Positions 2,986 through 21,716 of a DNA stretch of 21,961 nt are shown piece by piece. Numbering within the stretch: position 1 is the first letter of the stretch; each line of letters opens with the position of its first letter. The stretch is from a virus. The notes under the pieces were generated by a model. That model worked only from the letters and a program-made list of their open reading frames with translations, was not told where the DNA came from and made no database searches. The position numbers and the translations under genes are program-made. The stretch covers positions 1-21,961 of IMG/VR virus record IMGVR_UViG_3300047094_000555; one strand, 5' to 3'.

Positions 2986-3150
2986 CTATTTCTTTAGACT
3001 CCTAGTTTCCAATCTATTAACAACCATTCCTTTCCTAATCATTTTCATCATTGCTTCCTGTGCGGATTCAAGTTGAAAATAACAGGCAAACTTCTGCTCT
3101 CCCATAAACTCATACTCTACAGTATAAAACTCATTATCGAGTTTAGGCAT
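2986..3150 (-). CDS. Small unrecognised protein, 54 residues
   Basis: Reads MPKLDNEFYTVEYEF, then QKFACYFQLESAQEA, then a methionine- and lysine-rich helix (MMKMIRKGM). The pattern is strand-strand-helix. It overlaps the end of the HNH gene by 8 bp and is the last gene before cassette C, so it may travel with the nuclease. Confidence 0.65.
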   Translation of the reverse strand: MPKLDNEFYTVEYEFMGEQKFACYFQLESAQEAMMKMIRKGMVVNRLETRSLKK

Positions 3151-3619
3151 AGGTGTATTCTTTCCATTCAGGAACGTTTGACCTATCCAGAGAGAATAGC
3201 ATCTTGTTGAGTGGTTTTCTTGGAACAGTTTGAAGAACTAAGTTGGTTTCTTCTAGGAGTTTATCACTCTTTCTAGTATTGCAAGGCATACAAGCAACAA
3301 CTAGATTCTCCCAAGTATCTCCACCACCACGAGAACGTGGAATGATGTGGTCAATAGTAAGTTGTTTAGTCGAACCACAATACTGACATTTATGCCCATC
3401 ACGTTTGTAAATCATAGTACGAGATGGTTTGTTCTGTGCGAGTTTCTCATAGGGCAACTTAATATAATTGACCAGTCGAATGACTCTCTTACCGAGTGCC
3501 TGTGCTTTATTCTTCATAAGAAGCACAATTGCTCTCTTCCAATTAGTGAAGTTAATTGGTTCGTAAGATGCGTTCAGAACAAGTATAGTTTGGTTTGGTT
3601 CAATTTTTAAGTAGTCCAT
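3143..3619 (-). CDS. HNH endonuclease
   Basis: 158 residues. Zinc-binding CQYC at 78-81 and CMPC at 110-113 flank the HNH core: TIDHIIPRSRGG at 88-99 with catalytic Asp90-His91, and the Asn at 105 of WENLV. The first 60 residues are a basic region typical of the small free-standing HNH proteins shared by cyanobacteria and their phages. It should nick or cut DNA; in phages these act as homing enzymes or in packaging and host DNA breakdown, and the sequence does not say which. It has its own consensus promoter at 3640-3669, unlike every other gene here. Confidence 0.92.
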   Translation of the reverse strand: MDYLKIEPNQTILVLNASYEPINFTNWKRAIVLLMKNKAQALGKRVIRLVNYIKLPYEKLAQNKPSRTMIYKRDGHKCQYCGSTKQLTIDHIIPRSRGGGDTWENLVVACMPCNTRKSDKLLEETNLVLQTVPRKPLNKMLFSLDRSNVPEWKEYTYA

Positions 3620-3639: not shown

Positions 3640-3669
3640 ATTATACTTCCATTAGTATCTAGATGTCAA
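3640..3669 (-). promoter_or_regulatory. Consensus sigma-70 promoter of the HNH gene
   Basis: TTGACA at 3664-3669, an 18-bp spacer, and TATAAT at 3640-3645, both hexamers exact. TTGACA overlaps the last codons of the metallophosphoesterase, whose TAG stop lies in the spacer. No dyad is present at the cassette distance, so this is a different promoter class that host RNA polymerase could read unaided. Confidence 0.75.
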
Positions 3670-4429
3670 AGAATTTATCTGGAAAGAATCCAGTATCTTG
3701 ACCTGGATAACCACCAGGATTACAAACAACACGACAACCATCAATCATATAATCAAAGGCATTGTGAGTGTGTCCGTGAACCCAGTATTTGATTTGTGGA
3801 TGATTCACAATAACATCATCAAGATTACTACAATAAGCACCGTTAGCATTTTTCTTATATTGCTGCGGAATCGACTGATAACTCGGTGCGTGATGACTGA
3901 TGACAAATACGTTTTCATTCAGTGTTTGTAGTTGCTTGAGAAGATACTTCTTACTATCCTTATGAAAAGCAAGAGTATCCGATGGATTCATCTTCCGATA
4001 CTTCGGAGTGATACGAATAACTTTATAGTCATTCATACACTGTGCTGCTTCCATCATCTCTAGAGCATTTTCATTACGAAAATCACTCCATAAAGTGAAA
4101 CCAATGAAGTTCCAGTTGTTGATTGTTATTGTATCATTATCAAGGAGATGGAAATTATGAGGAAGATTCTCTTTTAATTTCTTTTTGGTCCCTTCATAGT
4201 TATATCCATAGAACTCATGATTTCCCATCACATAAAGAACTTTATTATAGTTCTTGCTGCAATCATTCAAGAATCTATCATAGACTGCGTGGATATATCC
4301 ATCAGTCTTGAAATGCTTGGCACAAAGAATGTCTCCAGCAAGAACTAGAACATCACCTTCACCAACATCAAATACTTGACAAGCAACAAAGTGCTCCAGG
4401 TGTAAATCACTAAGAACTTTGAGTTTCAT
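3659..4429 (-). CDS. Calcineurin-like metallophosphoesterase
   Basis: 256 residues with the full metal-binding set in order: SDLHLEH at 7-13 (Asp8, His10), GDIL at 32-35, GNHEFYG at 69-75, SHHAPSY in the C-terminal half and HGHTH near the end. This is the dinuclear-metal phosphoesterase fold, acting on phosphate mono- or diesters; the substrate cannot be told. Similar enzymes are common in T4-like cyanophages, and relation to nucleotide or RNA end processing is only a guess. It lies between the tRNA gene and the HNH gene in one unit. Confidence 0.92.
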   Translation of the reverse strand: MKLKVLSDLHLEHFVACQVFDVGEGDVLVLAGDILCAKHFKTDGYIHAVYDRFLNDCSKNYNKVLYVMGNHEFYGYNYEGTKKKLKENLPHNFHLLDNDTITINNWNFIGFTLWSDFRNENALEMMEAAQCMNDYKVIRITPKYRKMNPSDTLAFHKDSKKYLLKQLQTLNENVFVISHHAPSYQSIPQQYKKNANGAYCSNLDDVIVNHPQIKYWVHGHTHNAFDYMIDGCRVVCNPGGYPGQDTGFFPDKFFDI

Positions 4430-4445
4430 TGTTATAGTTGGATAA

Positions 4446-4519
<74 letters not shown>

Positions 4520-4603
4520 AAGAGACCCTCCTGTTTGTGCATTATTAAGAGGCATAGAGGGTGTGGGACTTACTTAAAGTTTGGACCTTTAATGCCCGTA
4601 ATT

Positions 4604-18933: not shown

Positions 18934-19287
18934 TCAATCCCAACTAACATTTTGCAAAAGAAAACCAGGCATCACATAAGTCCATCCAGTTCCTGCTGGT
19001 TTATAATCCCATTTGTATTCATATTTGTTATGACTATCCCAAGTCATATATCCATTTTGACTATCAAAACGACCTTTAATAGTCAATGCAAATCGGTTAG
19101 AAAAGATATTACGAGTGCGAAGTGCTCCATTTTTTTCTCGGGTTTCAATCACTACACAAGTATCATCATAAAGTTGACCTTCTGACTCAATCGCACAAGG
19201 AGTTTCATACCGAAATGGACGTGTGCTCTCAGTTGCTAGTGCAGGAGAAGTCAGAAAAAGAGATGCAATCAGGAAAAGACTTTTCAT
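18934..19287 (-). CDS. Secreted protein with cleavable signal peptide, 117 residues
   Basis: Start at 19287, giving MKSLFLIASLFLTSPALA as a textbook Sec signal peptide with cleavage after ALA-18. The mature part has Cys in PCAIES and DTCVVIET (likely one disulfide), ETREKNGALRTRNIF, and a Trp/Tyr-rich end (TWDSHNKYEYKWDYKP, GFLLQNVSWD). It is the kind of small exported beta protein repeated in T4-like cyanophages. The target is the periplasm or outer membrane; function unknown. An ATG two codons upstream at 19293 is possible. Confidence 0.85.
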   Translation of the reverse strand: MKSLFLIASLFLTSPALATESTRPFRYETPCAIESEGQLYDDTCVVIETREKNGALRTRNIFSNRFALTIKGRFDSQNGYMTWDSHNKYEYKWDYKPAGTGWTYVMPGFLLQNVSWD

Positions 19288-19289
19288 AA

Positions 19290-19496
19290 TCATTTAACAA
19301 TTTGCCAGTTAGAATCTTGCTTTTTATTTACCGTGAATTTGTATTTACCATTTACGGAAGTCAAAAACATTGTTCCGTTTTGTTCATCATCAACATAACA
19401 ACTATGAAGATGGTCCATTTCAGTATCAAACCTAAGTTTTGCCATACTAGAAACAGGTTCAACACAGACAAATTTACGTTTAATTGTCGCAGTCAT
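19290..19496 (-). CDS. Unrecognised protein, 68 residues, related to 8886-9173
   Basis: Start at 19496 (MTATIKRKFVCVEPVSSMAK), with GAGGAACC before the ATG; the frame upstream to 19526 is inside the neighbour. RK-V-V-P-SS-AK-R at the front and FL-S-NGKY, then DSNWQIVK at the end match 8886-9173, which has about 25 extra residues. So a shorter paralogue. Confidence 0.7.
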   Translation of the reverse strand: MTATIKRKFVCVEPVSSMAKLRFDTEMDHLHSCYVDDEQNGTMFLTSVNGKYKFTVNKKQDSNWQIVK

Positions 19497-19644
19497 ATGG
19501 TTCCTCAATAGAATAGAATGAATCATTTTTCAGGTTTGGAAGCAACTTATTTTCCAATTTTGGCATATACCAATCTTTAATGTGATTGTAATAAAATTCT
19601 ACCACATTGTTATTAACTAATTCATCTGCCCAATTTTCAATCAT
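19480..19644 (-). CDS. Small unrecognised protein, 54 residues
   Basis: MIENWADELVNNNVVEFYYN, then HIKDWYMPKLENKLLP and an acidic end EEPYDCDN. Overlaps the next gene by 17 bp in another frame, unusual but with coherent codon use in both. Hidden below the length usually reported. Confidence 0.6.
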   Translation of the reverse strand: MIENWADELVNNNVVEFYYNHIKDWYMPKLENKLLPNLKNDSFYSIEEPYDCDN

Positions 19645-19805
19645 CAATTTTCAAGAACAACGATAGTAGAAGGAGAAAATACAGACCTTCGAACATATGA
19701 TGCTCGAAGAACTTGTTTGATTGTTGATTTATTAACAAGTTCAATGTCAGAGGGAGTCAAACTCCCCCATCGGATAGAAGCAATATAAAGTTTAATTAGA
19801 TTCAT
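19644..19805 (-). CDS. Small unrecognised protein, 53 residues
   Basis: MNLIKLYIASIRWGSLTPSD, then a helix NKSTIKQVLRASYVRRSV and a hydrophobic end. Basic overall. TGATG overlap downstream and 4-bp overlap upstream. Confidence 0.6.
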   Translation of the reverse strand: MNLIKLYIASIRWGSLTPSDIELVNKSTIKQVLRASYVRRSVFSPSTIVVLEN

Positions 19806-20209
19806 TTATTCATTTGTAGAGTAGGAACAGGCATACCACCTTCGGTAGGAACATAGATGGTTACGTTACCATTCTTGCTACCATCTTCCAGACCAGTGAT
19901 ATAAAGATACTGGAGATACTCACGATTGTCTTTTAGACTATCACCAATGATTTGGTTTGCCTTAGCGACACCAGTAGCACGGATGATCTCAGCATCAGCA
20001 AGCTGTTGTGCAGAATCTTTCTTTGCTTGTGCTTCAAGCACAGCAACCTGGCGAGTATATTCTGCCTTCTGTAGTTCTGCTTTACCAGCAAGAGATTGCT
20101 GCCACACATTATACTGGGGACCACCAATAAAGATGAGACCCCCAACCACAACTACACCAACTGCTACGAGGGCAACACCAGCATCAATAAATCCGTTTTG
20201 GTTTTTCAT
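19802..20209 (-). CDS. SPFH/prohibitin-like membrane coiled-coil protein
   Basis: 135 residues. After MKNQNGFIDAG comes one membrane helix (about 11-29, VALVAVGVVVVGGLIFIGG). Residues 38-90 are an Ala/Glu/Lys coiled coil (AGKAELQKAEYTRQVAVLEA), then LKDNREYLQYLYITGLEDG and TIYVPTEGGMP. The coiled coil with AEIIRATGVAKANQII and the YL--L-I------N--IYVPT end follow the C-terminal half of SPFH (stomatin/prohibitin/HflK-type) proteins, without the SPFH domain itself. Such proteins gather membrane proteases or lipids. It lies 8 bp after the pilin-like gene. Confidence 0.55.
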   Translation of the reverse strand: MKNQNGFIDAGVALVAVGVVVVGGLIFIGGPQYNVWQQSLAGKAELQKAEYTRQVAVLEAQAKKDSAQQLADAEIIRATGVAKANQIIGDSLKDNREYLQYLYITGLEDGSKNGNVTIYVPTEGGMPVPTLQMNK

Positions 20210-20217
20210 AATTTACC

Positions 20218-20409
20218 TCAGTTATAAGTACAAAGTTGAGTAATGCGACCATATTGAATGCCTTCAGACCATTTTCCACCAGCAGCAATGCAGGATTGTT
20301 TGGATGGAACGATAGAGTTGCCAGTAGCAATACTAAACAAAAAAGCACATCCAATACCAGCAATAGCAACAGCAATCAGCAACTCAATAAGAGTGAATCC
20401 GTTTTTCAT
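20218..20409 (-). CDS. Miniature type IV pilin-like protein
   Basis: 63 residues. MKNG|FTLIELLIAVAIAGIG is a complete class III prepilin signal: short basic leader, Gly at -1, Phe at +1, Glu at +5, then the hydrophobic stalk helix. A host prepilin peptidase (PilD) should cut it and methylate the Phe. The mature part is only 59 residues, with Cys at 40 and 60 placed like the disulfide loop of pilins. True pilins have about 120-170 residues, so this lacks the globular head and could cap, block or poison host pili or competence pseudopili. Start and frame are clear; overlaps the downstream gene's spacer by none, the upstream gene by 4 bp. Confidence 0.75.
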   Translation of the reverse strand: MKNGFTLIELLIAVAIAGIGCAFLFSIATGNSIVPSKQSCIAAGGKWSEGIQYGRITQLCTYN

Positions 20410-20594
20410 TTAGAAGAAACGTTAGTTTTGAAAATAAGATTAGCAAGGAATACAATAGCAAGATTTTGCCAAATGGTCAAAGATACATTAAACCAAGACA
20501 GAATCAATCCAAGCAATGCTGCTTCAAAGAATAGTCCAGCAACAGCAAGGACAATTACACCAAAAGCAACACCAAGAGCAGTAGAAGATTTCAT
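20406..20594 (-). CDS. Two-helix membrane protein, 62 residues
   Basis: MKSSTALGVAFGVIVLAVAG and a second hydrophobic segment (LTIWQNLAIVFLANLIF) with GLILSWFNVS between them; possibly three short helices. Overlaps the pilin-like gene by 4 bp, so the two are made together. Confidence 0.75.
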   Translation of the reverse strand: MKSSTALGVAFGVIVLAVAGLFFEAALLGLILSWFNVSLTIWQNLAIVFLANLIFKTNVSSK

Positions 20595-20677
20595 TTTTTA
20601 ACCTTAGAATAAACAGTAAGAGAAAAGTCCATCAGACAATAACCAAAGGCAAATGCTGCCATAATTGTAGTAATCAT
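20591..20677 (-). CDS. 28-residue membrane peptide
   Basis: MITTIMAAFAFGYCLMDFSL followed by TVYSKVKK: one short hydrophobic helix and a basic tail. The stop overlaps the next ATG as ATGA, and its ATG overlaps the previous stop as TAATG. This tight fit at both ends is the evidence for a gene this small. Confidence 0.55.
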   Translation of the reverse strand: MITTIMAAFAFGYCLMDFSLTVYSKVKK

Positions 20678-21681: not shown

Positions 21682-21689
21682 TATTTATA
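21682..21689 (-). promoter_or_regulatory. T4-type late promoter TATAAATA
   Basis: An exact TATAAATA, the T4-family late promoter box used by the gp55-type sigma factor and sliding clamp, lies 22 bases before the ATG at 21659 and just after a terminator. This gene is therefore expected late, unlike the cassette-driven genes. Confidence 0.7.
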
Positions 21690-21690
21690 C

Positions 21691-21716
21691 CAAAAGAGGG
21701 GCATTTCTGCCCCTCT
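21691..21716 (-). terminator. Strong rho-independent terminator
   Basis: AGAGGGGC-AGAAAT-GCCCCTCT with a following TTTTG: eight perfect pairs, mostly G-C, with the A/T ends included. It isolates the 45-residue gene upstream from the late gene downstream. Confidence 0.9.

Follow-up and report, generated by a model that had tools for sequence, protein, structure and literature searches.

The gene unit around a small pilin-like gene

The stretch of DNA analysed here (the window) is a 21,961-base IMG/VR virus record, which is a fragment. On its minus strand lies a gene for a 63-residue protein with a prepilin signal, which we call the mini-pilin, within a unit of small genes. The features of the gene and its unit are as follows.

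20218..20409, minus strand: mini-pilin gene; 63 aa, ATG start, MKNG followed by FTLIELLIAVAIAGIGCAFLFSIATGNSIVPSKQSCIAAGGKWSEGIQYGRITQLCTYN; rests on PF07963, TIGR02532, relatives and purifying selection
20398..20409, minus strand: leader peptide MKNG, with a predicted prepilin peptidase cut following Gly4; residues 2-24 match PF07963
20326..20397, minus strand: pilin alpha1-N-like transmembrane helix; mature residues 1-24, Glu5 at codon 9; AF2 helix at 7-28
20221..20301, minus strand: C-terminal tip, residues 37-63, KQSCIAAGGKWSEGIQYGRITQLCTYN; short helix and beta hairpin in the model, Cys40 and Cys60; near-invariant in 22 relatives
20406..20594, minus strand: mem62, a 62-aa two-helix membrane protein; ATGA overlap with the mini-pilin start
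20591..20677, minus strand: 28-aa membrane ORF, related to S-PM2p011 and S-SZBM1 gp171
19802..20209, minus strand: tail-only SPFH-like protein, 135 aa (PHROG 11227 'protease'); next gene downstream of the mini-pilin
19644..19805, minus strand: 53-aa ORF; ATGA overlap with the SPFH-like stop
18934..19293, minus strand: 119-aa predicted secreted protein with an N-terminal signal, downstream in the unit
21682..21689, minus strand: TATAAATA, T4-type late promoter motif; candidate promoter of the unit, directly after a terminator-like hairpin

ATGA overlaps join the 28-aa ORF to mem62, mem62 to the mini-pilin and the SPFH-like gene to the 53-aa ORF, and the mini-pilin stop codon, TGA, falls within TGAGGTAAATTATG, just before the SPFH-like start. 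These overlaps, with the 119-aa predicted secreted protein downstream, bear out a first-pass annotation of this DNA, which had placed the gene in one unit with an SPFH-like protein, a secreted protein and small membrane proteins. The 119-aa protein is also encoded near the mini-pilin in several relatives, and S-PM2p011 and S-SZBM1 gp171 immediately precede the SPFH-like gene in their phages. The 135-aa SPFH-like protein matched PHROG 11227 (E=2e-52) and, over its C-terminal part, PHROG 200 (E=4e-12); no Band_7 domain was found in it using Pfam. We considered its N terminus, MKNQNGF, as a second prepilin signal and rejected it, as relatives (MTRYDDPNTP, MKPDNTLRN) do not retain NGF and Glu5 is absent.

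A strong terminator-like hairpin lies at 21695-21716 on the minus strand, and TATAAATA stands 22 nt ahead of a 128-aa ORF that may start the unit. The motif is possibly the late promoter of the unit; its placement is sensible, and its count is at chance level. Elsewhere in the window, an Eco57I-type methylase homologue sits at the edge (171-1121, minus; PF07669, E=3e-6), and an HNH endonuclease (3143-3619), a calcineurin-like phosphoesterase (3659-4429) and a tRNA-Arg (TCT; 4445-4520) lie in a row on the minus strand.

A prepilin signal joined to a conserved tip

The 63-aa ORF opens with a class III prepilin signal, MKNG followed by FTLIELLIAVAIAG, which includes Glu5 and is trailed by about 35 residues. 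Two profiles matched above their cut-offs: PF07963 (N_methyl; E=4.3e-8, 32.8 bits versus 21.2), which matches exactly one place in the record, and TIGR02532 (IV_pilin_GFxxxE; E=1.3e-7, 31.2 bits versus 16.3). The protein has the short basic leader ending in Gly and the hydrophobic tract of about 21 residues that mark a class III signal, and a cut after Gly4 would leave a mature start of F1-T2-L3-I4-E5, with Glu5 being E9 of the precursor. The full signal with Glu at +5 that the first-pass annotation had described is therefore present, as is the Cys pair that it had placed past the helix: Cys21 lies within the helix, and Cys40 and Cys60 beyond it.

That annotation had also proposed that cyanophage genomes be searched for short proteins with the GFTLIE signal. 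The gene or a remnant of it occurs in 38 other IMG/VR contigs, 32 of them with an intact signal, so it is not absent from all relatives. Among 22 distinct relatives, Gly is found at -1 in 20, Glu5 in 21 and Leu6 in all. Each of the 18 phage records that we tested has exactly one prepilin-type gene. The DNA beside the mini-pilin matches the marine/estuarine Synechococcus myoviruses S-PM2 and S-SZBM1. The three largest relatives tested (L020, L043 and L044; 225-258 kb) contain psbA/psbD-type genes, two of them in L020, and their psbA-type genes identify them as cyanophages. No full mini-pilin was found in the named phages of the phage collection, where named cyanophages match the signal only, and a megablast of 9 kb of the 258-kb relative against named phages gave no match.

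To gauge selection, we calculated Nei-Gojobori proportions on 15 distinct coding sequences. Over the whole gene, pS was 0.35 and pN 0.17. These values and the 38 other contigs argue that the ORF is not due to chance; the proposal of the first-pass annotation holds in that 20218-20409 belongs to a phage and encodes a miniature pilin-like protein, kept in relatives. It is hardly conceivable that host pilin DNA was picked up by chance or that the gene is an assembly artefact. Viral collections do hold full-size host-like pilins, but the 22 distinct relatives and the purifying selection on 15 coding sequences contradict such an origin, as do the several positions that the gene takes among phage genes and the psbA/psbD genes on near-complete members.

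Constraint is concentrated at the C terminus. For the last 26 residues (38-63), pN was 0.058 versus a pS of 0.36, revealing strong purifying selection; for residues 1-26, pN was 0.26 versus a pS of 0.32. When parsimony changes per column were counted on the 22 distinct proteins, the mean was 1.4 in residues 38-63 versus 5.2 in the non-motif columns of the helix. The six motif columns G-1, F1, T2, L3, E5 and L6 had nine changes in total, fewer than random helix columns (permutation p 0.0017), and the same comparison for G-1, T2 and E5 alone gave p 0.016. The pattern in these sequences suggests that the helix may drift if it stays pilin-like at its start, and that the tip may not.

The apparent constancy of the tip is inflated, since the tip was also used in search patterns. 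We rejected the idea that its invariance is purely an effect of those patterns: a search seeded on mem62 only recovered a prepilin-type gene in 13 of 80 loci, and every one had the same tip, although many of these loci are the same contigs. In some relatives, the tip is found with a changed or missing signal. L047 has lost both Gly-1 and Glu5 and keeps the tip, as does L041, which has Ser at -1. In L023 (494-637), the start of mem62 is fused in frame to the tip; in L025 (5877-6081), mem62 runs out of frame into the tip region; and L050 (6001-6111) has a tip remnant with no signal. The deletion and fusion forms in L023, L025 and L050 are possibly real variants, or possibly assembly chimaeras.

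An AF2 model built from the 22-sequence input (mean pLDDT 75, pTM 0.37) predicts a helix at residues 7-28, a short helix at 37-42 and beta strands at 46-52 and 55-61. The predicted helix ends near residue 28, and the alpha1-C segment and globular beta-sheet head usual for major pilins are absent from the model, which is why we call the protein mini-pilin-like rather than a pilin. The earlier description of it as a headless pilin stands in that there is no full head, but it is not simply headless, as the short C-terminal tip is its most conserved part. Such conservation implies that the tip has a job of its own.

Searches of Pfam, NCBIfam and PDB gave no significant match to the tip, and a fold search of the 63-aa model against PDB and BFVD yielded nothing below E=0.7. 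In a scan of GTDB genomes with the mini-pilin, the matches listed were essentially signal-driven, and a plasmid search returned signal matches only. The K..C...GG.W stretch of the tip weakly resembles the T4-like gp8 baseplate wedge (E=0.24 over 15 residues; the Peetri wedge reads 'SKEACIAAGGAW'), which would fit a protein of the virion or of lysis with a T4-type structural motif as its tip. We consider this very improbable, because the match is short and not significant, a prepilin-type membrane protein would be odd in a virion, and the neighbours are not virion genes.

An accessory cassette beside SPFH genes

The mini-pilin gene is an accessory cassette, missing from most phages that have the same neighbours. 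ATGA joins mem62 directly to the SPFH-like gene in L190, L197, L210 and other phages; the window and several relatives have the mini-pilin in a 200-nt slot between the two. The flanking DNA is 87-91% identical to that of the empty-site phages L190, L197 and L210. The mini-pilin start, ATGAAAAACGGATT, resembles the start of the SPFH-like gene, ATGAAAAACCAAAACGGATT, and this likeness may have helped insertion. The cultured phages S-PM2, S-SZBM1 and S-SRM01 have the SPFH-like gene with no mini-pilin beside it, and mem62 is encoded in at least 241 viral contigs.

In other settings, the mini-pilin follows a lipoprotein gene of the S-SRM01 gp138 type, or precedes a gp137-type gene or a gene for a 270-aa Band_7 protein (PF01145, E=2.6e-19). 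In 33 of the 38 loci, which are not independent lineages, the same strand has an SPFH gene 0.1-1.8 kb downstream. The partner is of two types, the 135-aa tail-only form and the 270-aa Band_7 form. Five loci have no downstream SPFH gene: L016, L017, L018, L022, which is cut by the contig end, and L050. Across the 38 loci, the neighbours are SPFH, lipoprotein and small membrane genes, and no other pilus gene is among them.

Dozens of cyanophage-like contigs pair mem62 with the tail-only SPFH protein (19802-20209 in the window; relatives in L190-L266), which lacks a Band_7 domain, and similar SPFH tails with about 60% identity are found in Salmonella, Klebsiella and Erwinia phages. In several cyanophage-like contigs, the SPFH gene or the mini-pilin has as its neighbour the gene for a 160-aa phage lipoprotein (S-SRM01 gp138; L036 1940-2422 and homologues), for which Pfam gave nothing significant. 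The same membrane module has a phage CP12 gene (PF02672) close by in L004, L038 and L042, 1-2 kb upstream of the mini-pilin, and in L036 (796-1008).

The steady association with SPFH genes raises an explanation in which pili are untouched. The prepilin helix would be a mere inner-membrane anchor, and the protein a subunit, with a periplasmic tip, of a phage membrane module that comprises mem62, an SPFH or tail-only SPFH protein and the lipoprotein. Such a module could remodel the envelope, scaffold a protease or block DNA injection by other phages. The same-strand SPFH gene in 33 of 38 loci, with two distinct SPFH types in the role, fits this explanation, as do a tip far more conserved than the helix, the L047 protein that keeps its tip with no prepilin motif, and the in-frame fusion of the mem62 start to the tip in L023. 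However, a plain anchor has no need of Gly-1, Thr2 or Glu5, a charged residue within a membrane helix is costly, and Glu5 is kept in 21 of 22 relatives; moreover, in unrelated phages this pilin helix comes back with other tips. We find a mere anchor somewhat less likely than an effect on host pili, yet it is the leading rival, sustained by the link to SPFH genes, by how constant the tip is and by L047.

Possible interference with host type IV pili

Our tentative reading of the sequence evidence is that the mini-pilin uses host PilD and the type IV pilus (T4P) platform as a false minor pilin, and that interference with pilus assembly is its most likely effect. The host SRP/Sec pathway would insert the protein, and the prepilin peptidase PilD would cut it after Gly4. 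The product would be a 59-residue inner-membrane protein consisting of a single alpha1-N helix that includes Glu5, plus a small tip facing the periplasm and perhaps closed by a Cys40-Cys60 disulfide. Its helix could let it pass for a minor pilin at the assembly platform of the T4P or of a pseudopilus. As it has no alpha1-C and no full head, it would most likely starve, cap or misdirect pilus assembly during infection. The outcome could be less DNA uptake or less pilus-dependent re-infection, and the mini-pilin may act together with the neighbouring phage SPFH membrane module.

The prepilin motif has been retained in a helix that otherwise drifts, and this agrees better with a protein recognized by PilD and the pilus machine than with a mere anchor. 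A prepilin signal suffices to insert proteins into the membrane; processing depends critically on Gly-1, whereas Glu5 is not required for the cut but is needed for homopolymer assembly (PMC4471445). Since Glu5 is not needed for processing, its retention points to assembly, and entry into the platform is favored because nearly all relatives keep a residue that an anchor alone would not need. Many prepilin peptidases are promiscuous and accept foreign substrates (PMC4471445), and some Synechococcus (picocyanobacteria) build T4P from GFTLxE pilins (PMC7994388). Against a role in pili, the tip is kept in L047, which has lost Gly-1 and Glu5, and in L041, with Ser at -1; conservation peaks in the tip instead of the helix; and the genes regularly found alongside, for SPFH, lipoprotein and small membrane proteins, do not encode pilus proteins.

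A protein that lacks a full pilin head might also fail to be incorporated into a filament. A working minor pilin would co-assemble into, or prime, the host pilus or competence pseudopilus, display the tip and alter pilus binding, for example in aggregation or in contact with new host cells. The retained motif with Glu5 and the invariant, binding-like tip are compatible with such a role, and filaments can incorporate odd subunits beside normal ones (PMC4471445). Yet the protein lacks alpha1-C and its tip is tiny, which would place the tip close to the filament core or the membrane instead of exposing it, and a lytic phage would have little obvious gain. We regard a working minor pilin as improbable.

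The first-pass annotation had suggested that the protein might stall the host pilus machine or exclude other phages. Pseudomonas phage Pf4 encodes PfsE, an inner-membrane protein some 30 residues long that binds PilC and removes pili (PMC8764522), and by analogy with it both are plausible. The comparison with PfsE, another tiny phage inner-membrane protein aimed at T4P, is one of working only: unlike the mini-pilin, PfsE has a conserved YXWGW motif, which is absent from the 63-aa protein, and no prepilin signal (PMC8764522). The known phage T4P blockers Aqs1, D3112 gp05, PfsE and QDWS Gp21 hit PilB or PilC, or the expression of PilA (PMC11436027, PMC8764522). Phage imitation of the pilin itself, if true, would be a different route from these blockers, which are outside the pilin family. 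Shut-off of pili during infection is directly testable in a transformable, piliated Synechococcus. The PADLOC anti-phage defence models gave no match to the mini-pilin at E up to 1.

Phage genes annotated as pilins exist already, and by sequence the mini-pilin shares only the signal with them. PHROG 3433 ('pilin'; marine cyanophages ACG-2014f and S-CAM7) is likewise a phage gene in Kyanoviridae with a GFTLIEL signal. It differs in its length of 127 aa, its longer Cys-containing head and its downstream partner gene, PHROG 3415. The mini-pilin matched the 127-position PHROG 3433 profile over residues 2-22 only (E=0.0011), short of a full-length match, versus 5.9e-78 for the ACG-2014f pilin. In S-CAM7 (L033, NC_031927; 4028-4330), the annotated 'pilin' start lies inside the signal, and an upstream in-frame ATG restores the full GFTLIE. 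The 'PilE-like' protein of Acinetobacter phage vB_AbaM_Acibel004 (AHY26712) also has a prepilin signal and a short Cys tail (39% over 63 aa, E=0.1), but it has 107 aa and four Cys, and the tip is not shared.

Among cellular pilins, the best PDB match was Geobacter short PilA (geopilin domain 1; 2m7g, 6vk9, 7tgg and 9egp; E=4.9e-6), a 61-residue chain with a class III signal. This PilA is a major filament subunit; the match to the mini-pilin covers residues 2-25 only, and PilA has no Cys tip. Tad/Flp pilins are defined by Glu5-Tyr6 in the helix, and the mini-pilin has Glu5-Leu6. We found no description of a phage mini-pilin in the literature searched, and the short form with its near-invariant tip, its cassette behavior and its SPFH partners did not come up there either.

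Short pilin-signal proteins with other tips occur more widely. A GFTL-x-ELMIV DNA pattern run against viral contigs gave 75 complete ORFs among the matches listed, with mature lengths of 114-192 in 51 and of at most 102 in 24; the sample is shaped by the pattern and by the matches listed, and these frequencies are not estimates. Many of the 51 longer ORFs are probably host-like pilins. Among the matches listed, most of the short ORFs above 60 residues have two Cys close to the C terminus, frequently in the form C[IV].G[YF].F...Q[VI]..E.G.G..C. These short proteins are predicted to form one helix and beta strands, and their contigs reach several hundred kb. One set (A5: L027, L028, L029, L071, L080, L112, L117, L125, L136 and L137) comes from a diverse range of large phage contigs and has a C..G[YF].F...Q...G.G..C tip, for which Pfam and PHROG gave no significant match. 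Like the mini-pilin, its members have a prepilin signal, a mature length of about 60-90, a C-terminal Cys pair and predicted beta strands after one helix; unlike it, they come from other phage types, and their tip is not similar to C...GGKWSEGIQYGR.TQLC.

One plan, a signal, a short stretch and a Cys pair, appears again in large phages that are unrelated and whose tips differ, so what they have in common is the pilin helix. One could go further and propose a class of pilus-jamming proteins that is common to large lytic phages and has gone unrecognised, built from a pilin helix and a swappable Cys tip, and that in cyanophages such as these the mini-pilin and the SPFH/lipoprotein module shut down or repurpose host T4P; we think this extension rather unlikely. 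The recurrence itself suggests that the pilus platform may be a commoner phage target than annotation shows. PHROG 10597, 11263 and 13280, which have 59-72 positions and no annotated function, match the same prepilin signal.
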